From positions 1 through 64,000 of the forward strand of contig JAFGDS010000005.1 of NCBI GenBank assembly GCA_016931995.1: a stretch of 64,000 bases of DNA, read 5' to 3'. Below the pieces are notes generated by a model. The model searched no databases. It worked only from the letters and a program-made list of their open reading frames with translations, and had not been told where the DNA came from. The DNA is from Pirellulales bacterium (GTDB taxonomy: Bacteria > Planctomycetota > Planctomycetia > Pirellulales > Thermoguttaceae). The position numbers and the translations under genes were made by a program. Positions 8,766 to 45,037 of the stretch are shown in pieces (positions within the stretch are counted from its first letter, which is position 1; each line of letters starts with the position of its first letter).

Positions 8766-10205
8766 ATGTACAAAACCATGACGGTTCTTGGATTGTTGTT
8801 GGCCGTAACGCTTTCGGCGTCGCTGGCGCAGGGCGACGCCGGCCCGCGGTTGCGTCAGCCTTTCGCTGCCCAAACCACGTCATTTGAGAACGAATCGCTC
8901 ACCGCGATGGCCGACCCGGCGTCCGATTCGCCCAGCGACGTCGTCGTTTCCCCGCCCGCCGAGACCTCGCCCGGCCACGCGGCAACCGAAGACTTCAGCC
9001 CGCGCCGGTGTAACCGCCGCTGCGGGCACGGCTGCGGCTGCGGGTGTTGCCTGGGCGAGCCGTGGACGCTGCCTCAGCCGTGCGGGCTCCAGCGGCTGGG
9101 CATCCGGATGGGCGGCTGGATCGAACAAGGCTTCACGGCCAACGCCGAGGACCCCAAGGATCGTTTCAACGGGCCCGTGGGTCTCAACACCCGCAGCGCC
9201 GACTACCAGATGAACCAGCTTTGGTTCTGGCTCGACCGGCCCACCGACGGCCACCGATACGGCTGGGACGTTGGCGGCCACGTCGACCTGGTCTACGGCA
9301 CGGACTGGCCCTACGGACTCGGCCACAACCTTGAAAATCACATCAACGGCATGGATCAGTTCTACGGCATGGTTCTGCCGCAGGCCTACGGCGAGGTGGC
9401 CGTGAGCAACCTCAAGGTCCGCGGCGGCCGGTTCGCCGGACTGCTCTCGTACGAACAGGTGCCTTCGGTGGGCAACTTCTTCTATTCCCACTCCTACACC
9501 ATGTGCTACACCGAGCCGCAGTTGGTCACCGGCGTCATGGCCGATTACCAGATCGCCGACGCGGTCTCCGTCCAGGGCGGCTTCCACCAGGGCTGGTTCA
9601 TGTGGGAAGACATCAACAAGTACAAGGACTTCATGGGCGGCGTCCGTTGGACCAGCCGCGATGGACAAACGAAGCTCTCGTACCATCTGACCAACGGCCG
9701 CCAGGACGGACTGGGTGGTTGGGCCACCAAGAACTGGTACGCCCATAGCATTGTGTTCCAGCGGCGGATCTCGCGCAGAACGCAGTACGTCCTGCAGCAC
9801 AACCTGGGCTATGCCGACGACCTCTACCTGCCCGGCCAGCCCGCCGCCGACGCCGAGTGGTACACGATCAACCAGTATTTGTTCTACCAGATCAACCCGC
9901 GATGGAAGGCCGGCCTTCGTTTCGAGTGGATGCGCGACGACGACGGCGTCCGCGTGGCGGGCCCGGCCGCAAACCCGATGTATCCCCAACTGCGGACGTG
10001 GGACGGCTGGGGCTACGCGGGCGACTTCTACGAACTGACCGCCGGCCTCAATTGGCGGCCCAACGCCAACTGGGTCATCCGACCCGAAGTCCGCTGGGAC
10101 TGGTACCACGGCCTGCGGAATCCCGTCAACCACTCGCGGCCGTTCGACGACGGCAACAGCGACGACCAGCTCACGTTCGCCGTGGACGCCATCGTGACGT
10201 TCTAG
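8766..10205 (+). CDS. Beta-barrel porin-like outer-membrane protein, paralogue 3
   Basis: Third tandem barrel protein, 479 residues, 21 bases after porin 2 with GGAGGATCTCA before the ATG, so probably co-transcribed with it. The signal peptide is MYKTMTVLGLLLAVTLSASL followed by AQG. It has the densest cysteine patch of the three (CNRRCGHGCGCGCCLGE), then GGWIEQGFTANAEDPKDRFN and the family strands. It differs most in the middle (FYGMVLPQAYGEVAVSNLKV), suggesting a different pore lining. It ends AIVTF with a terminal aromatic. Its TAG stop shares the palindrome CTAG with the stop of the convergent gene. Confidence 0.85.
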   Translation: MYKTMTVLGLLLAVTLSASLAQGDAGPRLRQPFAAQTTSFENESLTAMADPASDSPSDVVVSPPAETSPGHAATEDFSPRRCNRRCGHGCGCGCCLGEPWTLPQPCGLQRLGIRMGGWIEQGFTANAEDPKDRFNGPVGLNTRSADYQMNQLWFWLDRPTDGHRYGWDVGGHVDLVYGTDWPYGLGHNLENHINGMDQFYGMVLPQAYGEVAVSNLKVRGGRFAGLLSYEQVPSVGNFFYSHSYTMCYTEPQLVTGVMADYQIADAVSVQGGFHQGWFMWEDINKYKDFMGGVRWTSRDGQTKLSYHLTNGRQDGLGGWATKNWYAHSIVFQRRISRRTQYVLQHNLGYADDLYLPGQPAADAEWYTINQYLFYQINPRWKAGLRFEWMRDDDGVRVAGPAANPMYPQLRTWDGWGYAGDFYELTAGLNWRPNANWVIRPEVRWDWYHGLRNPVNHSRPFDDGNSDDQLTFAVDAIVTF

Positions 10206-12859
10206 CGTTCGGCGGTGAAGCGGTAATTGAGCTTGCGCACGCCGCCGATCTCCTGGGCGCGGATCCAGAGGGTCTTGCCCAGAAGCTGCTCGCCGTTGGG
10301 AAGATGATAGATCCGCACGCGGTTTCCTCGGGGCAGGTCGAGGACGCGGGTTTCTTGCCTGGGGTAGCCCGGCGCCGAAAGCTGACAACGGAAGCTCACG
10401 CGCTCGTCCGTCGCGTTGACGAAGTTCTGAACCACCTCGAGCTGGCCGAGGTGGTTCAGCGACGTGGCGGACTCGATCCAGACGCCGCCCAGCCCCACCT
10501 CGATCTGACGGTATACGCTGAAGTGGTAGAGCTGGTCGGCCTGCACCTCGAAATCCGCCCGGAACTCGTGGACGCCGTTGTTCGCGTCGTAGGGTAGCAG
10601 AATCTCGAACGGCACGCGGACCGACTCGCCGGCCGCCAGCCGGAAGGAGATCCGCCGCGGCGTGACGTTCCAGATATCGGGCACGACGAGATCGACCTGG
10701 CCTCCCGCGCCCCGCGGGAAGTGGTTGCGGATTTCGATCGCGTTTTGATGCTGCCGGCCAAAAATGCTCGGAATCCGGCTCTTTTCCAAGGCGAAGTCCA
10801 TCCGCCATTGCGCCACGGCCTTGTTGAGCCCCGTCACGAAAGACGGCGCCTTCCCCACGGGGACCACCTGCTGCCGTCCGTCGGTCGCGGGCGCGGTCGT
10901 CCGTCCCCAGACGTCGACTTGCCGCACGTTGTCGCCCAGATAGAGAGTCTCCTTGCAGGGTCGATCGTTCCAGACGACCATCACGGCGTCGTCGTGGCGC
11001 GCGAAGATCTCGTTGGAGCTTCCGTTGGGCATCACGATGCTGCCCAGGTGGCGGCTGCCGCCCAAAAGCATGGCCGCCGTCCGCCAAACGAGCAGCATCT
11101 CGCTGGGCGTGCCGTCGTCGTTCAGCAGGCCGCGGTGCGCGTGGAACGGATCGGACGAGAAGACGGCGTCCGCGCCGTCGATCTTCGCGGCCATCATCCG
11201 CCGCACCAGGTCCGTCGCCCGCACGTCCACCGAATACGACCGATCGTCCAACGGCTCCAGAACAACCCACCGGCGCATCCGCTCCTGGCCCAGCGTCCCA
11301 TCCGGCGGGTCGTTCGGCCGCGAGGCGATCAGATAGGTGGACAGCTCTTCGTGCGTCAGCGGCGGTTGGCTGGACAGGGCCAAGAAACGCAGCGACGTCT
11401 GGTTCGCGTCCGTCGGCGGCATCGCGTCGATCCAGTTCCACGCCACGCCCAAATTCACGTCCTCGCCGACGCGGTCCAGGGTCGCCTTGATCTGGGCAAG
11501 CTTCTCGCCGAGCTTCAAACACCCGACGAAGCTCGTGTCCGCGTCCCGCCCCAGTTGCCACCACTGCACCCGCGTCGAAAGCCGCGTGAGCACGGGCTCG
11601 ATGGATGGGTACCAGGCTTCCGGGTTGGCCGTGAAAATGTCCGCGGCCTCCAACAGTCGCGACCGTCCGAAGCGGGCGCGGATTTCGGGTGGAGGCTGGT
11701 CCAACACGCCGATCATCTCGATCCCCTCCGTGGCCAGACGCTCGCTGAATTGAATCAAGTCTTCAATCTCGGCTTCGGTCGTCTCCTTGCCGTACCAGAG
11801 CGGGTATTTCACCCAATGGATGCCCACGTGCCCCAGCAATCGCCCCAACGTCGGCAGCGACAATGGGCCGGCGCCCCGGGGCAGGCTCCAACCGAACTCG
11901 CCACCCAATGGGCTGGGCCACGGCTCGATGATCGCAAAATGGATGACCCGCACGCAGGTCGATCCGTCCTTGCTCCCCAGCAGCTCCGCGCGAACGCGGT
12001 AGAAACCCGGCTCCTTCAACGGCGGCTTCCACGTCACCTGCCCCGATTGGCCGCTCGGGTCGTCCGTGAACCGATCCAGCGACCACTCGGCGCCGCCGGC
12101 CACGCGCCGCACGGCGAGCGGCCGCTCGCTCCGGGCCAGCACGTCGCCGTGGACGCCTTCCAGTTGGAACGAGACGAGGGGCCTTTGCTGTGGAAAACCC
12201 GACGCGCGACACTGAATCTCCACCTCGCCCGGCTTCGTGAAGATGTTGTGCGCAAGCGCCGTGGATAGATTCATCCTCGGCAGACGGCCCAGCCATATGT
12301 CGTTGAACACCGCGGCGCCGGTCAGGTCGCCGCGCGTCCGCGGCTCCAAATGAAGACCGATGACCGCCGTGCGCACGCCCTCCTCCGGCGGCTCCACGGG
12401 ACCCAAACGATACTTCGTCCACCGCTCGACCGTGCAAACGGCCGGCGTCGTGAAACGCGCAAGCGCCTTGTTCTTCTCGTCAAGAAACGTCAGCGAAAAG
12501 AAAGCCCGGTCATGTTTGAGACCCTCCGTTTTCATCTGCCCCTCGAGGACGTACGCGTAAAGCGCCGTCACGTCGATCGGCGGACTATAGGCGACCGCCC
12601 CCCCGCCGTCCAACTCGATCCGGAGGCACCGATTTCCCACGGGCGACGGCTCGTCGCTCATCAAGATCTCGACGTAGTGGGGGAATCCTGGCCCCTGACG
12701 CCGCGTCCAGTGGTCCGGCCAACCATCGAAATTCACGTCCCACGCCTGGCCGAAATCGCATTCGAAGACCGGTTTGGCGCCGGGATAACGGGCGTCCAAG
12801 GGCGCGCTCGGCCCCGCCGTCAGAATCCCCAAGGTCAGAATTGCGGCTATCGTCGCCAT
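10202..12859 (-). CDS. Large secreted glycosidase-like protein
   Basis: An 885-residue protein with a short hydrophobic N-terminus (ATIAAILTLGILTAG), so probably exported. Residues about 30-200 look like a carbohydrate-binding beta-sandwich (FDGWPDHWTRRQGPGFPHYV onward). The middle, from about residue 325, resembles a TIM-barrel glycoside hydrolase: GIHWVKYPLWYGKETTEAEI, EGIEMIGVLDQPPP and a later VQWWQLGRDAD segment. The C-terminal 250 residues look like beta-rich accessory domains. No family can be named with confidence and catalytic acids are not assigned. It is convergent with porin 3, sharing the 4-base CTAG, and divergent from the signal peptidase paralogue. Confidence 0.75.
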   Translation of the reverse strand: MATIAAILTLGILTAGPSAPLDARYPGAKPVFECDFGQAWDVNFDGWPDHWTRRQGPGFPHYVEILMSDEPSPVGNRCLRIELDGGGAVAYSPPIDVTALYAYVLEGQMKTEGLKHDRAFFSLTFLDEKNKALARFTTPAVCTVERWTKYRLGPVEPPEEGVRTAVIGLHLEPRTRGDLTGAAVFNDIWLGRLPRMNLSTALAHNIFTKPGEVEIQCRASGFPQQRPLVSFQLEGVHGDVLARSERPLAVRRVAGGAEWSLDRFTDDPSGQSGQVTWKPPLKEPGFYRVRAELLGSKDGSTCVRVIHFAIIEPWPSPLGGEFGWSLPRGAGPLSLPTLGRLLGHVGIHWVKYPLWYGKETTEAEIEDLIQFSERLATEGIEMIGVLDQPPPEIRARFGRSRLLEAADIFTANPEAWYPSIEPVLTRLSTRVQWWQLGRDADTSFVGCLKLGEKLAQIKATLDRVGEDVNLGVAWNWIDAMPPTDANQTSLRFLALSSQPPLTHEELSTYLIASRPNDPPDGTLGQERMRRWVVLEPLDDRSYSVDVRATDLVRRMMAAKIDGADAVFSSDPFHAHRGLLNDDGTPSEMLLVWRTAAMLLGGSRHLGSIVMPNGSSNEIFARHDDAVMVVWNDRPCKETLYLGDNVRQVDVWGRTTAPATDGRQQVVPVGKAPSFVTGLNKAVAQWRMDFALEKSRIPSIFGRQHQNAIEIRNHFPRGAGGQVDLVVPDIWNVTPRRISFRLAAGESVRVPFEILLPYDANNGVHEFRADFEVQADQLYHFSVYRQIEVGLGGVWIESATSLNHLGQLEVVQNFVNATDERVSFRCQLSAPGYPRQETRVLDLPRGNRVRIYHLPNGEQLLGKTLWIRAQEIGGVRKLNYRFTAER

Positions 12860-12957: not shown

Positions 12958-14496
12958 ATGCCCGCCACGAAGCCAGTACCCGTTTTCCACAAACCTTGCG
13001 TTGTCGTACTAAACCGGCGTCGCGACGCGGGCGGATGGATGGGGGCCGCGACCACGCTCTTGCCAGCACGTGCCGTGTTTCCGCAACAACCCACAGACTC
13101 GATACCATCGATTCCTCCGCGCCGATGGAGGCGATCGCGCCGGGCGGCCCAGGGTCTCCTACTCGGGCTCGTCGTGCTGCTGGTGACGGAGACCTGGCTG
13201 GTTGACGGGATTGCCCCGCCCTTGGACGTCTCGGGTGGGTCGATGGCCGAAACGATCCTCGGCCCCCACCGGGTGATCGTTTGCCGCGACTGTGGGCGCC
13301 GCTTCCGCTGCGACACCCGAGACGCTCACCCCGGGCGGCCTGCCACGTGTCCCAACTGCGGCTTCGGCCGCAATCCCGCGGCCGATGCGCGGGAGTTGCC
13401 CGGCGATCGGATCCTGATGGATCGCGCGACGTGGCGGGTGTTCCCCCCGACGCGCTGGGAAGTGGCTGCCTTCCGCGACCCCCGCGCGCCCGGACGAATC
13501 GCGGTCAAGCGGATCGTCGGTCTGCCGGGTGAGTCGGTCGAGATCCGCCGCGGCGACGTATTCATCGACGGGCGGATCCAGCGCAAGCCGCTGGCGCGCC
13601 AGCGGGCCATGGCCGTGTTGGTCCACGACGCGGATCATCCCTCGCGAGCCCCCGACGCGCCGGAGTCGCGCTGGCGGCCCGAACCGGCCGACGTGCCCTG
13701 GGGCTCGGCCGGCGGGCGATTCGCCCATCCCGCGCGGCCCGATGCCAAGCGGGTCGATTGGCTCGTTTACCATCACGCCATCCGACTTGGCGATTGCTTT
13801 TCGGCAGGGCCCGTCACGGACGACGATACGTATAACCTGGCGCGACCGCGACGCGCGGAGGAGGTCTCCACGGTGACCGACCTGCTGTTGGGCTTCGAGG
13901 TGCGGCGCCACTACGGCCGCGGCAGGCTTCTGGTCCGCGCCACCGACGGCGGCGAGGTTTTCGAGGTGGGCATCGACCCCGGCCGAGAGCGGTTCGAGGT
14001 CCTCCGCGGCGGACGCCCCATCCCGGTGGCCGAAGGGTCGCTGCCGGGACTTGGGCCGACGTTCCTGGTCGAGGTCTCTCTGTTTGACGCGGCGTTGACC
14101 TTGGCGATCGACGGGCGGGAGGTGGCCTCCGTGGCCTACGAACCCAACCCCAAGCGCCGGCCCGACGACCGGCCCTGGGCCCTCGGCGCGAAGGAGTTGG
14201 GCGTGGAGCTGGGGTCGGTTCGGGTGTATCGGGACGTGTATTACACCCACCCCCTCGGGCCGCTCGCCCGCTGGGCGGTGGACCGCCCCGTGGCACTCGG
14301 CCCGGACGAATTCTTCGTCTTGGGCGACAACAGCCCGATCTCCGAAGACAGCCGCACCTGGCCCGACGGACCTGGCCTAGACGCTAAGTTCCTGATTGGC
14401 AAGCCCTTAGCGGTCCATATTCCATCCGACGAGGCGCGGCTGGGTCCCTGGCACATCCGCGTTCCGGCGGTCGGACGGATCCGGTATATTCGCTGA
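12958..14496 (+). CDS. Signal peptidase I paralogue with zinc ribbon and beta-sandwich insert
   Basis: Serine-lysine leader peptidase (S26) predicted to sit in the inner membrane with its active site outside. A TM segment (GLLLGLVVLLVTETWLVDGI) precedes SGGSMAETI (Ser95) and RIAVKRIVGLPGE (Lys184), with the C-terminal box FFVLGDNSPISEDSRTW intact. Two features are unusual: a zinc-ribbon-like CRDCGRRFRC...CPNCGFG between the Ser and Lys boxes, and a roughly 200-residue beta-rich insertion ending VYRDVYYTHP before the last box. Start is uncertain: this ATG gives 512 residues and a second ATG at 13039 gives 485. Paired with lepB next door; possibly a specialised paralogue. Confidence 0.85.
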   Translation: MPATKPVPVFHKPCVVVLNRRRDAGGWMGAATTLLPARAVFPQQPTDSIPSIPPRRWRRSRRAAQGLLLGLVVLLVTETWLVDGIAPPLDVSGGSMAETILGPHRVIVCRDCGRRFRCDTRDAHPGRPATCPNCGFGRNPAADARELPGDRILMDRATWRVFPPTRWEVAAFRDPRAPGRIAVKRIVGLPGESVEIRRGDVFIDGRIQRKPLARQRAMAVLVHDADHPSRAPDAPESRWRPEPADVPWGSAGGRFAHPARPDAKRVDWLVYHHAIRLGDCFSAGPVTDDDTYNLARPRRAEEVSTVTDLLLGFEVRRHYGRGRLLVRATDGGEVFEVGIDPGRERFEVLRGGRPIPVAEGSLPGLGPTFLVEVSLFDAALTLAIDGREVASVAYEPNPKRRPDDRPWALGAKELGVELGSVRVYRDVYYTHPLGPLARWAVDRPVALGPDEFFVLGDNSPISEDSRTWPDGPGLDAKFLIGKPLAVHIPSDEARLGPWHIRVPAVGRIRYIR

Positions 14497-14513
14497 CTTG
14501 GCCGGAACGCCGG

Positions 14514-14519
14514 TACAAT
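14514..14519 (+). promoter_or_regulatory. Possible -10 element before lepB
   Basis: TACAAT, 165 bases upstream of the lepB ATG and just after the stop of its paralogue. No acceptable -35 lies at the right distance, so the match is weak. Confidence 0.25.
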
Positions 14520-14541
14520 ACGCTTTGGCGGCCGGCGCCAC

Positions 14542-14667
14542 GATCTCCCCTCGGTCCACTTGCGGGAGGGGGCTGAGCGTGAGGGGTTTTGGATCGATAA
14601 CACGTAAGGGGTATTCACCACTTCGCACCGCCCTCACCCTAACCCTCTCCCGGAGGGAGAGGGGACG
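14542..14667. repeat. Family E palindromic repeats (two arms)
   Basis: The left arm carries CTTGCGGGAGGGGGCTGAGC and GTGAGGGG; the right arm is CCCTCACCCTAACCCTCTCC followed by CGGAGGGAGAGGGG, itself a hairpin. Together they fill the spacer between the two signal peptidase genes and stop about 5 bases before the GAAGGA ribosome-binding site of lepB. Confidence 0.75.
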
Positions 14668-14683
14668 GTGAAGGAAATCCTTC

Positions 14684-16528
14684 ATGGCCAAAAAGAAACG
14701 CGACCGAAAGCCCGCTCCCGTCCCCCCCGCCGACGACCGGCAGCGCCAGGGCAAAGCCGTGTCTCCGGCGCCGACCCCCACCCCCGGCGCCCGGGCCCAG
14801 GCGATCACCCGCGAGCTGGTCGAGATGATCGTCACGGCGTTCGTCCTGGCGTTTCTGTTTCGCACGTTCGAGGCCGAGGCGTTTGTGATTCCCACTGGGT
14901 CGATGGCCACGACGCTGATGGGCCGGCACAAGGACGTGGAGTGCCCGATGTGCCACTATCCCTACCAAGTCAGCGCTAGCGAGGAGGTCAACAGCGAAAC
15001 GGGAGCCCCCGCCCGCGACGAGGATGGATACCCCATCAAGGTGACCGACGGCACGTGCCCGATGTGTCACTACGAAATGCGGCTCGCCCAAGAGGACTCG
15101 TACAACGGCGACCGCATTCTCGTCAACAAGTTTGCCTATCAATTTTCCGATCCCGAGCGGTTTGACGTGGCCGTGTTCCATTGTCCAGACGAGGCGCGGA
15201 CGAACTACGTCAAGCGGATCACGGGCTTGCCCGGCGAGACGATTCGGATTCGCAACGGCGACCTTTTCGTGAGGAAGGACGGCCAGAGCGGATTCGAAAT
15301 CGCCCGAAAGCCACCGGGCAAGTTTCTGGCGATGCTCCGCACCGTGTACGACAACGACCGCGTGCTGCCCGAAAAGCTCCTGGCGCGCGGGTGGCCGGCC
15401 CGATGGCAGGCCGCCGACTCGACCGGCGGGTGGCGAGTCTCCGAGGATCACCGGTCGTTCGCCGCGGACGGCAAGCAGCCGGGCGAGGCGTGGCTCCGCT
15501 ACCACCACTACCTGCCCAATCCGGGCATTTGGAAACGCCTGGAGCGGGGCGAGCCCTTGACGGCCGACGTATTGCCCAAACCACGTCTGGTGGCCGACGA
15601 TTGCCAGTACAACTCGACCGTCACCATTGCGGTCCATCGGAAAAAGGAGGAGTTCAAGGCGGATCAAAAGGCGCAGTGGGAGCAGCAGCGCCGGATGGGA
15701 TTCCGCGCGCCCGCCGCGTCCGACAGCGTTTTCCCGCGGGACTGGGAAGACAACGGCCTGGGCTTGCACTGGGTCGGCGATCTGGCCGTGGCCTGTACGC
15801 TCGCCGTCCGCGGAGAGTCCGGCTCGGTCCTCTTCGAGCTGGTCGAGGGCGTGCGCACGATGCGATGCCGGCTCGACGCGGCCACCGGCCAGGCGACGCT
15901 CTCGATCTCCGGTCCCGAGGGGCTCGCGTGGACCGGGCAAACCCGCATCCGAGGGCCGGGCGAGTACGAGATTCTCTTCGCCAACGTGGACGACGAGCTG
16001 CGTCTGTCGGTCGATGGACGTTGGATCACGTTCGACAGGCCAACGGCCCACCCGCCGTTGGGAAACGATTCGCCCACCGACGCGGATCTCTCGCCGGTGG
16101 GCATCGCCTCGGTCGGGGCGGACGTCGAAGTCCACCACCTCCGCATCCTGCGCGATACGTACTACATCGCCGACAAGGACAACCACGGCCCCGTGTCGGA
16201 TTTCGAGGATCCGACGTTGTTGTACCGAGACGACCTGCCCGCGACGATCGCCGGCGTCATGTCCTCGCCGAAAACGTACGCCCGGGCCAAGCGGCGGCAC
16301 GTTGATTTTACCCTCGAGAAGGACCAGTTCCTCGCCCTGGGCGACAACAGCGCCCGGAGTAAGGACAGCCGGCTTTGGGCGGGCGTGCATTACGTCGACC
16401 GGGAACTCTTGATCGGCCAGGCCCTGTGCATCTACTGGCCCCATTCGTGGGACGAGATCCGCCTGGGCGACTGGAAGATCCCATTCCCCTTCTTCCCCAA
16501 TTTTGCGAAGATGGGGTTCGTGCGGTAG
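14684..16528 (+). CDS. lepB: Signal peptidase I with large insertions
   Basis: Inner-membrane leader peptidase that cleaves Sec and Tat signal peptides. TM segment EMIVTAFVLAFLFRTFEAEA (about residues 47-66), IPTGSMATTLMG with catalytic Ser73, NYVKRITGLPGETIRI with Lys177, and C-terminal FLALGDNSARSKDSR are all intact. At 614 residues it is about twice the usual length. Cys87/90 (CPMCHYPY) and Cys125/128 (CPMCHYE) form a split zinc ribbon between the Ser and Lys boxes. A roughly 300-residue insertion before the last box includes a charged helical part and a beta-sandwich-like part ending ILRDTYYIAD. GAAGGA precedes the ATG. An upstream paralogue shares this architecture. Confidence 0.93.
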   Translation: MAKKKRDRKPAPVPPADDRQRQGKAVSPAPTPTPGARAQAITRELVEMIVTAFVLAFLFRTFEAEAFVIPTGSMATTLMGRHKDVECPMCHYPYQVSASEEVNSETGAPARDEDGYPIKVTDGTCPMCHYEMRLAQEDSYNGDRILVNKFAYQFSDPERFDVAVFHCPDEARTNYVKRITGLPGETIRIRNGDLFVRKDGQSGFEIARKPPGKFLAMLRTVYDNDRVLPEKLLARGWPARWQAADSTGGWRVSEDHRSFAADGKQPGEAWLRYHHYLPNPGIWKRLERGEPLTADVLPKPRLVADDCQYNSTVTIAVHRKKEEFKADQKAQWEQQRRMGFRAPAASDSVFPRDWEDNGLGLHWVGDLAVACTLAVRGESGSVLFELVEGVRTMRCRLDAATGQATLSISGPEGLAWTGQTRIRGPGEYEILFANVDDELRLSVDGRWITFDRPTAHPPLGNDSPTDADLSPVGIASVGADVEVHHLRILRDTYYIADKDNHGPVSDFEDPTLLYRDDLPATIAGVMSSPKTYARAKRRHVDFTLEKDQFLALGDNSARSKDSRLWAGVHYVDRELLIGQALCIYWPHSWDEIRLGDWKIPFPFFPNFAKMGFVR

Positions 16529-16559: not shown

Positions 16560-16684
16560 CCGGGGACTGGTGCATTTTCGGCCACTTGGCCTACCACTTG
16601 CGGACGACACGCAAGCCGAAAAGATGCACCTGTCCCCTTTGGTGGCGCACCCCCGGCCCCTTTCCCGCTTTCCGGGAGAGGGGA
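16560..16684. repeat. Repeat pair before the LptB-type gene (families H and E)
   Basis: GGGGACTGGTGCATTTTCGG at the left and its inverse CCGAAAAGATGCACCTGTCC at about 16617-16636 form widely separated arms. These are followed by a family E hairpin, CCCCTTTCCCGCTTTCCGGG then AGAGGGGAG, ending about 30 bases before the start codon of the ABC ATPase. Confidence 0.65.
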
Positions 16685-16714
16685 GAAGAATTCGACAAAC
16701 ACGGACGTGCCGCG

Positions 16715-17518
16715 ATGCCCATGCTGGAAGTGACAGGGTTGGTCAAGGTCTACGGCGCCCGCCGGGTGGTCGATGGCGTCGATTTCGTCGTCGAGCGGGG
16801 CGAGATCGTCGGCCTTTTGGGCCCCAACGGCGCCGGCAAGACGACCAGCTTCCGCATGACCTGCGGCATGATCGAGCCCAACGCCGGCCGCGTCGTCCTG
16901 GGCGGCAAGGACGTCACCAACTGGCCCATGTATCGCCGGGCGCTCGAGGGCCACATGGGCTATCTCGCCCAGGAGTCGAGCGTCTTCCGCAAGCTCTCGG
17001 TCGAAAAGAACCTGCTGGGCGTCATGGAGATGCTCGGCCGGCACGACCGCAAGGCCCGGCGACGCCGCTGCGACGAGCTCCTGGAGCAATTCGACATCAC
17101 GCGGCTCCGCAAGAGCCTGGCCATGTCCCTGTCCGGCGGCGAGCGGCGCCGGCTCGAGATCGCCCGGGCGCTGGTGTCCGATCCCGAGATCATCTTGCTG
17201 GACGAGCCCTTCACGGGCATCGACCCGGTGACCATCGCCAGCATCCAGCGGATCATCCGCCGGTTGCGGAGCGAGGGCATCGCCATTCTCGTCACGGACC
17301 ATCAGGTTCGCGAGACGCTCGAAATCACCAACCGCAGCTACGTGATCCGCGCCGGCAAGGTGCTCTGCCACGGCACGCCGGAACAAGTGCTGGCCAATCC
17401 CGAGGCGCGGAAATACTACTTCGGCGAGGACATGGAGATTGGCCGGTCCGTCCCCCGTCCCCACCGCCCCGAAGACCACCAGGCCGCCCCGCCCGCCCGC
17501 GTCATCCGCCGCGTGTGA
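16715..17518 (+). CDS. lptB: ABC transporter ATP-binding protein, LptB type
   Basis: ATPase expected to drive lipopolysaccharide extraction by the LptBFG complex. Walker A GLLGPNGAGKTTSF, LptB-like YLAQESSVFRKLSVEKNLLG, signature LSGGERRRLEIARAL, Walker B IILLDEPFTGIDP and switch His in VTDHQVRETLEITNRSYVI all match LptB closely. The 267 residues include a Pro/Arg-rich tail of about 25 residues beyond the usual end. The start (MPMLEVTGLVKVYGARRV) has a choice of two adjacent ATGs and no strong Shine-Dalgarno. The partner LptF/G/A/C genes are not in the window. A branched-chain-type ABC ATPase is the less likely alternative. Confidence 0.88.
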   Translation: MPMLEVTGLVKVYGARRVVDGVDFVVERGEIVGLLGPNGAGKTTSFRMTCGMIEPNAGRVVLGGKDVTNWPMYRRALEGHMGYLAQESSVFRKLSVEKNLLGVMEMLGRHDRKARRRRCDELLEQFDITRLRKSLAMSLSGGERRRLEIARALVSDPEIILLDEPFTGIDPVTIASIQRIIRRLRSEGIAILVTDHQVRETLEITNRSYVIRAGKVLCHGTPEQVLANPEARKYYFGEDMEIGRSVPRPHRPEDHQAAPPARVIRRV

Positions 17519-41700: not shown

Positions 41701-44700
41701 CCTGCATGTCGCCCAGCCGGTACAGCGCGGCCGCGATCTGATATTGGGCAATGTGCATCTCCCAGTAGTCGCCCATGCGTCCCAGCAACCGGACCGCTTC
41801 GCGGCATTTCGCGATGCACTGCTCGAATTGCGAGGCGGCGTACAGCGCGACCCCCCAGAAGCTCAACGATTGACCCTGCCCCCAAAGATCGTCCAGCGCG
41901 CGGCGGATTTCGAGCGACTTTTGGGCGTAGGCCACGCCGCGCCCGTACCAACCCACCAAGGTCAACGCCACGGCGTGTTCGGAGTACACTTGCGCCATCT
42001 CCACGGTTGGCGCGAATTGTTCGGCCAGGTTCATTCCGTGCAGATGCACCCAAAAGTTTCTCGCCCGGCCCCGCGTATAGAAGTAGCAGTAGGCCAATCG
42101 ACTGAGCAGCCGGAGCCCCAGCCGTTCCGCCTCCGAGGGCCGGCGCCGCCAGCCGACGAACACGCGGGGAAGCAACGTGTGGAGCAGTTGGACGAAGATT
42201 TCCCAGGGCAAGAGCAGCGTCAGGGCGAGAGAGACGGGCGCGGCCGATATTCCCACCAGACGCAACGCGGTCTCAAACGCCCTGTTCGCGCTTTCCATGT
42301 CGCCCTGTTTGAAGTCCAACTCGCCGAGTTTGCCCGTGATCTGGGCTCGCGCGAGTTTGCCCTCGGCCAGGCCCTCCGCTTCCTGGAGGACGTGCTTCGC
42401 CTCCGCGTACTGGCCGCGCAGCATCAGCACTTCGCCCAATCCCTCGCGGATGGCGTATCGCGTGGCGTTGTCCGTGGCGGCTTCCCCGCGCCGCGCGATG
42501 CGGTATTGCTGTTCGGCCACTTCCAGGGCGTGCCGCGACCGCGCCTGCTCCGCGGCCGCCAGCGCGTACGGAAGCGCCCTGGCGCTTTCGCCGGCGGCGT
42601 CGAAGTGGTAAGCCAGCTCGAATATGCGGTGCCGCGCGTGTTGCGCAAGATGGCGCGCGACGCGGGCGTGCAGCATGCGCTGCCGCTCCGCCGACATCCG
42701 CTCGAGCAGCGCGGCGCGAATCCTGTCATGCACGAACGCGCACTCGCTTGCGCCCGAGCGCATCCAGATGAAGTGTCGCTGGCTGGCTTCCTCCAGCGCG
42801 GCCGTCGCCTGTTCCGGGGAAAGCCCCTCGATCTGGGCGGCAAGGTGGAGATCGAACTCCTTGCCCAACACGGCGCCCACCGTCAACAGTTCGATGGTGG
42901 CCTGCGGCAACAGCTCGACCCGGCGAGCGAGGAACGCCGCCGCTTGGCTGGACGACTGGAGATTCGCCAGGGCCAACGGCTCGATCCGCCAGCCGTCGGC
43001 TGCGGCCTGCAACACGCCGGACTCCACCATCCCTCGCAAGAGAGCCGACGCCATGAACGGGCTGCCCTCGGATAGCCGGCCGATCACCTCCTCGGCCTCG
43101 GCGGGCAACGGGCCCGCCATCGATTCCAGGAGCCACCGCGTTTCGTCGGCGCCCAGTGGAGCGAGCCGCACGTGCACCGTGGGACGCGTCTTCCGCAGCG
43201 CGTGGTCCGCCGGGACCTCCTCGGTGCGGAAGGAGGCCAGCAACAGCACGCGGGAAGCCGGTCGCGACGCTCCTCCGCGAATCCGGCTCCAGTGCCCAAT
43301 GAGTTTGACCGACATCTCGTCGGCCCACTGGCAGTCGTCCAAGGCGACGAGGACCGGCCGCGGTCCCGAGCCCAAGGCGTCCAGAAACGCCGACAGCGCT
43401 TGCACGCTTCGCGCCTCGCCGAAGACTTCCGGACCCAACGTGCCCGAGGTTTCCCAACCAAACGCGTTTGCCAGATCCGGCAGGGCGGCGCACACGGCGT
43501 CCAGGTGTTCGCCCAACAGCGATCGGAGCGTCTCGGGCGCCGTGGGGTCGGCGATGGCGGCCGCGATCAGATCGTCGACAATTCCCTCGAAAACCTGGAA
43601 CGGCCGCGCGCCGATCTGCGCCAACGCGTGACCGCGTAGAATCCACATCCCGGCCTGGATGCCCCGGGTCGCCAACTCCGTCAGGAGCCGCGTCTTTCCT
43701 CCGCCGGAAAGAGCCTCGACGAACACCGTGGCGAAACCGCCCGCGACCACGCGGCCGATCTGTTCGTCAAGCCGCGCCAACTCGAGCCGGCGGCCGACCA
43801 GGGCGGGCTCGGTCAACGTCAGGCGACGGTCGTGCAGCCCCACCACCACGGGCGATGGTTCCGCCCCGTCCCGCGCCGCCGCGGCAATGTCCTCGAGATC
43901 CGCCAGAACCGCGCCCGCCGTTTGATAGCGGTCGCGAGGGTCCTTGTGCAGAAGCCGCCGAAGCAGCTCATCCAACGCCCTGGGGACGTCCAGCCCCATG
44001 GCTCGGAGCTCGGGAACGCGAGACGTCATTTGCCGAACGAGCACTCTTCCCACGGTGTCGCCGCCAAACGGCGGACTGCCCGCCAGGCACTCGAACAACA
44101 CGATGCCCGCCGAATACAAATCCGACGCGGCGCCGACCTCGCAATCCAACGCGCCGGCGCGTTCGGGCGACTGGTACAAGGCGGCTTCGATGGATTCCTC
44201 GCCGGTCCATTGGCTGCTGTTGGGGCAGCACCCGAAATTGAAGCCCGTCAACACGGCGGCGCCAAGGGGCGACGCCTCGTCGACGACGACGTTCGTCGGC
44301 CGGACGTCGCCGTGGAGCGCGCCTTCGGCGTGAACGTCGGCAAGCGCCGCGAACAAGCGGCAGCCAACCGTCAACGCGTCCGTCAAGTCGAGCGGCCCGC
44401 GGAGCAATCGCCGCGCCAGCGTGATCCCCGGCACGTGCGCCCGCACGACGTAGAACCGATTCGCCTCGCGCGCGAACGCCAGTACGGGCGCGAGCCACGG
44501 TCCGTGCAGTTTTTGCAGGATCGCCGCCCCGCGTTCCAGAGGGAGCGATTCCTCCTCCGAGGCGCCGGCCAACGTGACGAGTTCGACGACAACCTGCTCC
44601 CCGGTGACGAGGTCCGCGGCCAACAGCGTTTCGCCGGCCCGCGTCCTCTGGAGCGTCTTGACAACCTGATACCTGTTGCCCAGGCGCGTCGCGCCGGCGG

Positions 44701-44761
44701 GCAACAAGGACGGCGGCTCGGCCGGCCTCGCGGGCGTGTTGGATAAATCAGTGTGCTCCAT
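38798..44761 (-). CDS. Hybrid signalling protein: pseudokinase, AAA ATPase, helical repeats, GAF, histidine kinase, two receivers
   Basis: A 1,987-residue multidomain sensor. Residues about 30-290 form a Ser/Thr-kinase fold with HGDVRPTNV, but the VAIK lysine is replaced ([10 protein letters not shown]) and the DFG site reads TGFNFG, so it is probably a pseudokinase. An AAA-type ATPase follows with Walker [13 protein letters not shown] at about 350, then TPR-like helices to about 1280. A GAF domain spans about 1290-1420, and HisKA has [15 protein letters not shown] (His about 1481) with HATPase to about 1690. A first receiver appears degenerate; the second has [11 protein letters not shown] and [13 protein letters not shown] (Asp about 1904). 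Start [13 protein letters not shown] was chosen over an upstream frame without protein character. The input signal is unknown. Confidence 0.9.
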
Positions 44762-45037
44762 ACCTGAAAGCGTAGCCCCTGGCGGGGTATTCCCGCGGCC
44801 ACGTGCCAAAAAAGGGGGCTGCGCCGGACCGCCCCGCACGGGGTGGAGCCGCGCCGAATGTGACGATTGTATGGAGCGCCCGCGTCTGCGTCGGTCCGAA
44901 CGACGCGCCGAAACGGCGATCGCTGCCGGAATCATCTCGGCGCCGGAGGGATCGTGGCCGCTTGCACGCGCCGCGGACGGTGGCTAGATTATTGGGCGAG
45001 TCCCCCCACATCGTCCCGCCTTCACAAGGAGCCCGCC

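Follow-up and report, generated by a model that had tools for sequence, protein, structure and literature searches.

What kind of signal peptidase carries a cysteine-rich loop and a large beta-rich insert within its catalytic domain, and why should a bacterium encode two of them side by side? This question is raised by genes A and B, two adjacent open reading frames on the + strand of a 64,000-nucleotide stretch of DNA (hereafter the window) from a Pirellulales bacterium (GenBank assembly GCA_016931995.1, contig JAFGDS010000005.1). Most bacteria cannot do without signal peptidase I, which is also a drug target. An earlier reading of the window from its letters alone (the original prediction) had singled out the pair as signal peptidase paralogues of unusual architecture. 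Using sequence comparison and structure prediction, we arrived at an explanation that, taken as a whole, we consider likely: A and B represent the LepB of Planctomycetota, in which the cap is a concanavalin A-like sandwich and a Cys4 ribbon is added, with B acting as the housekeeping enzyme and A as a specialised one.

An enlarged signal peptidase I with a lectin-fold cap and a ribbon, in a phylum of unusual cell biology, would change how secretion and envelope assembly are viewed there. The long form may also affect how well LepB inhibitors, such as the arylomycins, work in Planctomycetota, and the ancient A/B pair would offer a direct system for asking whether bacteria sort cargo by signal peptidase.

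Catalytic core and distribution

Judged by sequence profiles, both proteins are members of signal peptidase I (LepB, MEROPS S26A). The Peptidase_S26 profile matched A with an E-value of 1.5e-18 and B with 3e-31, while scores against TIGR02227 (signal peptidase I; 57.9 bits for A and 104.4 for B, cut-off 47) and PF10502 (67.8 and 109.1, cut-off 22.9) all lay above threshold. The Ser, Lys and GDN residues of both proteins aligned in register with those of Escherichia coli LepB, which bears out the original prediction of S26 peptidases with Ser, Lys and GDNS boxes. Conservation was assessed in a set of 113 rows, in which A-type (43), B-type (37) and other-class (32) proteins were counted; the Ser/Lys dyad was kept in all 112 long-form rows (43/43, 37/37 and 32/32, respectively). 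Chance resemblance or misannotation is ruled out by these profile scores and this conservation, and cleavage of AxA-type signal peptides is the putative activity of both enzymes.

Relatives of B were found in 233 of 246 Planctomycetota genomes, and across the genome collection at least 573 stretches contained one; 80 loci were kept, all of them from planctomycetes by title. The combined architecture is present throughout the phylum, so that the possibility of its being peculiar to this genome was rejected. This phylum-wide spread had been overlooked in the original prediction: on the sequence evidence the long form is the standard signal peptidase I of Planctomycetota, and in many genomes it is the only one detected. 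The Peptidase_S26 matches listed in ten single-contig genomes (G024, G048, G069, G105, G152, G181, G238, G252, G256 and G262) all fell within two long frames each (541–655 amino acids), with no short S26 enzyme among them, and in G217 the listed matches were confined to one frame of 505 amino acids. As a control, the same S26 search was applied to 14 genomes and gave matches in 13, among them archaeal genomes. As the matches listed for the ten complete genomes include no S26 enzyme beyond the long forms, we infer that the long forms must carry out general signal peptide cleavage there. The task of the long form is probably essential and carried out in an undescribed manner; no published description of the architecture was found in the open-access library that was searched.

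E. coli LepB has two membrane helices and is encoded in a lepA-lepB operon. Boxes B to E, including the Ser/Lys dyad and the GDN box, are common to this enzyme (PDB 1b12, 1t7d) and to A and B; all three place a non-catalytic domain between boxes D and E, and in some planctomycete loci lepA again lies upstream. A and B differ from the E. coli enzyme in having one predicted membrane helix instead of two, a Cys4 ribbon after the Ser box, lptB downstream and a cap predicted to be a concanavalin A-like sandwich of ~220–280 residues, against ~93. The Gram-positive enzymes SpsB/SipS (PDB 4wvh, 4nv4) resemble A and B in their catalytic core and single anchor, but have a minimal cap and no ribbon. A large LepB also occurs in a sister phylum, Chlamydiota.

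The cap insert

Each protein contains, between its Lys and GDNS boxes, the large insertion originally reported, ending in YRDVYYT in A and LRDTYYI in B. Its most strongly conserved positions are a YN pair and the RDxYY motif, the Arg and Asp of which were kept in 42/43 A-type, 37/37 B-type and at least 28/32 other-class proteins, and the inserts of A, B and the outside proteins are homologous to one another (hhalign 99.8–100%). When 18 B-type and related sequences, combined in a profile, were aligned with the crystal chains of E. coli LepB, three blocks were recovered (IPxGSMxPTLL; GDxILVxKF to VGLPG; GDN to box E); on 1t7d_A, residues 23 and 25 of the chain flank the ribbon and residues 83 and 177 flank the insert. 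The latter interval is the slot of LepB domain II, a non-catalytic cap whose size differs between signal peptidases and which lacks conserved motifs (PMC4049620; see also PMC4704075); the insert therefore occupies an already known variable site.

AlphaFold2 returned the anticipated sandwich for both inserts, with a mean pLDDT (predicted local distance difference test) of 72.7 for A and 74.7 for B and values of 85–96 over most of the sandwich. Structure comparisons, for which Foldseek was also applied to the A and B models, matched the A insert best to levan utilisation machinery (8aa2_E; Z 15.2, root-mean-square deviation [rmsd] 2.8 over 154 residues), ERGIC-53 (Z 14.8) and CBM66 (Z 14.5), and the B insert to galactocerebrosidase (4ccc_A; Z 14.1, rmsd 3.8 over 166 residues), CBM66 (4azz_A; Z 13.7) and ERGIC-53 (Z 13.6). 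Both inserts are accordingly predicted to be concanavalin A-like lectin/glucanase sandwiches. The similarity to CBM66 of Bacillus subtilis (PDB 4azz, 4b1m; rmsd 2.9 Å over 148 residues for A and 3.2 Å over 153 residues for B) is one of predicted fold alone, the inserts having ~10% identity to this carbohydrate-binding module.

Sequence methods weakly support the same assignment. In hhalign comparisons, made with DUF1080 and LamG domains free of stops, the insert profiles matched the DUF1080 domains (PF06439, 3-keto-disaccharide hydrolase) of the same genome with 45–89% probability and E-values of 2e-6 to 2e-4 (single comparisons), against 1–44% for Laminin_G_3 and 0.1–0.4% for reversed controls, those set beside the DUF1080 comparison giving 0.1–0.2%. 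Within the concanavalin A-like superfamily the inserts thus appear to resemble PF06439 more closely than Laminin_G_3, and the LamG-like sandwich of the original prediction holds at the level of the superfamily but not for Laminin_G_3 itself. The inserts differ from PF06439 in going unrecognised by its Pfam model, and the resemblance does not imply enzymatic function.

The Cys4 ribbon

The pattern Cys-x2-Cys...Cys-x2-Cys lies between Ser and Lys in both proteins, as first described, and all four cysteines were retained in 41/43 A-type, 35/37 B-type and 23/32 other-class proteins; in those losses that were examined, all four had gone together. Strands flank the cysteines in both AlphaFold2 models, in keeping with the two CxxC knuckles on beta hairpins that are typical of a zinc ribbon. 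Several zinc-ribbon Pfam models matched the ribbon of A-type members weakly, below threshold; no curated zinc-ribbon profile matched above its cut-off. The sequence is consistent with a zinc ribbon having a putative metal site.

In the B-type enzymes of two order-mates (L036, 4609–6624; L037, 5317–7167) all four ribbon cysteines have been lost, while the loop and the dyad have been kept; these proteins would be natural test cases for the role of the ribbon. Two signal peptidases from one family (L141, 3311–4900; L145, 3289–4905) contain six CxxC pairs each, apparently forming three ribbons, one of which sits just before the Lys box.

Duplication and divergence

A careful tree of 60 proteins separated an A clade from a B clade, each with 100/100 support and each containing members of the window's order together with members of further orders in the class; a larger quick tree was concordant, two long A branches excepted. 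As each clade holds several orders, the duplication is older than their split, and the tree places it at the base of Planctomycetia; a recent local duplication was rejected on the same grounds. Tandem copies of their own were seen in four other families (f76, f21, f10 and f27).

Distances between A proteins exceeded those between B proteins in 350 of 351 locus pairs, with a median ratio of 1.74. The two types also differ in the S1/S3 pocket, the positions of which were taken from SpsB peptide complexes (PMC4704075). In E. coli numbering, F84, I86, P87 and Y/F143 are nearly invariant in B and the outside proteins, P87 being kept in 37/37 B-type and 31/32 other proteins and position 143 being Tyr or Phe in 37/37 B-type proteins. 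Among A-type proteins, F84 was kept in 2/43, P87 in 2/43 and Tyr at position 143 in 18/43; I86 and I144 have mostly changed conservatively to Val. Because its pocket has changed and its evolution is faster while its dyad has been kept, A is probably a specialised enzyme with a narrower or different substrate set. B, whose pocket is canonical, most likely has the housekeeping role. The division of labour that had been suggested for the pair is consistent with the ancient duplication and with A's changed pocket and faster evolution.

Coordinates and genome neighbourhood

The coordinates of the features are collected in Table 1. Downstream of A and B lies lptB, encoding the ATPase of lipopolysaccharide (LPS) export, which scored 318 bits against TIGR04406 (cut-off 240). 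Of 95 B loci, 84 contained lptB, in nearly every case as the next gene downstream on the same strand; among 20 loci fetched from other families of Planctomycetota, it adjoined the long S26 gene in 12. Upstream of the long S26 gene in L141 and L143 is lepA, giving the order lepA-lepB-lptB. Genes in the fetched loci were taken as open reading frames in GC-rich DNA.

Table 1. Positions in the window of the two signal peptidase genes, their parts and lptB.
Feature	Position	Strand	Basis
Gene A: long-form signal peptidase I, 512 amino acids, fast-evolving paralogue	12958..14496	+	S26 and TIGR02227 matches; A clade 100/100
A single N-terminal membrane helix, model residues 55-82	13120..13203	+	AlphaFold2, modest confidence; precedes Ser box
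A catalytic Ser95, GGSM box	13240..13242	+	43/43 A-type
A Cys4 ribbon, C109-x2-C112 ... C131-x2-C134	13282..13359	+	Invariant in 14-row alignment; 41/43 A-type
A catalytic Lys184, VKRIVGLPGE box	13507..13509	+	43/43 A-type
A predicted concanavalin A-like insert, ~residues 212-430, ends RDVYY, LepB domain II slot	13591..14247	+	AlphaFold2 and structure matches
A GDNS box (box E)	14323..14334	+	Sequence and alignment
Gene B: long-form signal peptidase I, 614 amino acids, probable housekeeping LepB	14684..16528	+	B clade 100/100; canonical pocket
B single N-terminal membrane helix, model residues 34-62	14783..14869	+	AlphaFold2, modest confidence; precedes Ser box
B catalytic Ser73, IPTGSM box	14900..14902	+	37/37 B-type
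B Cys4 ribbon, C87-x2-C90 ... C125-x2-C128	14942..15067	+	35/37 B-type
B catalytic Lys177, YVKRITGLPGE box	15212..15214	+	37/37 B-type
B predicted concanavalin A-like insert, ~residues 211-494, ends RDTYY	15314..16165	+	AlphaFold2 and structure matches
B GDNS box (box E)	16340..16351	+	Sequence and alignment
lptB, ATPase of LPS export, third gene of conserved cluster	16715..17518	+	Start inferred from profile match within frame 16586-17518

Proposed mechanism and alternatives

The roles that we infer for B, A, the metal site and the cap would fit together as follows. One membrane helix would anchor each enzyme, with the Ser/Lys catalytic domain at the outer face of the inner membrane, where it would cut the signal peptides of exported proteins. 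The concanavalin A-like sandwich, distantly DUF1080-like, would replace the variable domain II cap and stand beside the cleavage site, and the zinc-ribbon-like Cys4 loop after the Ser box would lie near the peptide-binding groove and the membrane. B would be the housekeeping enzyme; A would have arisen by duplication before the orders of Planctomycetia diverged and, with its dyad kept and its pocket changed, would act on other or narrower substrates. The cap would serve mainly as a protein docking or shielding platform, a role that we think, as a matter of judgement, preferable to that of a sugar-binding lectin; the substrate selection, tethering and ligand binding of the original prediction are plausible.

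Several observations weigh against this explanation. The models were built from shallow inputs (14 sequences for A and 18 for B), and the ribbon of A reached a pLDDT of only 64–77. None of the ConA, lectin, LamG and DUF1080 Pfam models matched any of the 32 aligned members, so that the insert was rejected as a Pfam-defined member of Laminin_G_3 or PF06439, and profile searching with the inserts yielded remote DUF1080 similarity without a Pfam family. Some homologues have lost the ribbon cysteines and kept the dyad, and the ribbon would therefore be dispensable for catalysis. Relaxed selection might also account for the drift of A's pocket. Finally, the window's genome also encodes a short canonical LepB of 222 amino acids, which could be the housekeeping enzyme there.

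Were the four ribbon cysteines to form disulfides instead of binding zinc, they would stabilise a loop outside the cytoplasm, which is where the predicted topology puts it, and the AlphaFold2 models contain no metal. We regard this as doubtful rather than far-fetched, given the CPxC knuckles and the weak matches to several zinc-ribbon Pfam models; joint loss of the four cysteines was also listed against it, though compatible with either zinc or disulfides. A cap that is a working lectin, binding envelope glycan or LPS so as to keep the signal peptidase where the envelope grows or to select glycosylated or envelope-bound cargo, would account for the conserved association with lptB, and both the top structural matches (carbohydrate-binding modules and lectins) and the conserved YN and RDxYY motifs speak for it. 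It seems unlikely to us, however, as fold alone is no proof of function and many concanavalin A-like domains do not bind sugar; the lectin family models gave no match, and the lptB linkage may be mere genome order inherited with lepA. It would be a long shot to suppose that an essential signal peptidase carries, phylum-wide, a lectin-type sensor cap that detects either a glycan of the envelope or an intermediate of LPS and, through lepB-lptB, ties cleavage to assembly of the outer membrane, leaving A to serve separate cargo.

The faster evolution of A, its drifted pocket, the loss of the ribbon in some copies and the absence of A beside B in several loci would all fit a duplicate gene in decay, as opposed to a specialised enzyme; yet the retention of Ser and Lys in every A-type protein, with GDN nearly invariant, across the whole age of the class makes decay improbable. 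As for the 222-residue protein, it is the only short LepB in the window's genome and the top scorer there against Peptidase_S26, as might be expected if it were the housekeeping enzyme and both long forms were specialised. Against this, ten complete relatives show only long forms among the matches listed, and a gene for a radical SAM/SPASM maturase homologue sits next to the short gene here and next to its closest relatives in G205 and G266. Since this neighbour is kept in three genomes, the short LepB is likelier to be dedicated to its locus, and of the alternatives considered we give a housekeeping role for it the least credence.

Further observations

The short LepB occurs with a PapB-type-like SPASM radical SAM gene in L001 (28–2022; G000:C39, ~43039–45033), L201 (3462–5645) and L202 (3361–5298), an arrangement kept in three genera at 53–54% identity; this may be a locus for a peptide natural product, served by a signal peptidase of its own. 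In family f21 (L135, L136 and L137) the tandem S26 frames extend to ~1250 codons and several contain an extra CxxC pair. The long N-terminal extension in L137 had no NCBIfam or Pfam match, and the excess length in this family may be partly open frame in GC-rich DNA.

Elsewhere in the window, positions 8766–10205 encode a putative beta-barrel porin of the BBP2 family (E 4.2e-70), and positions 10202–12859, on the minus strand, a large protein with a weak match to an NPCBM-associated domain. A gene 50% identical to the latter lies upstream of A and B in L055, likewise on the opposite strand.

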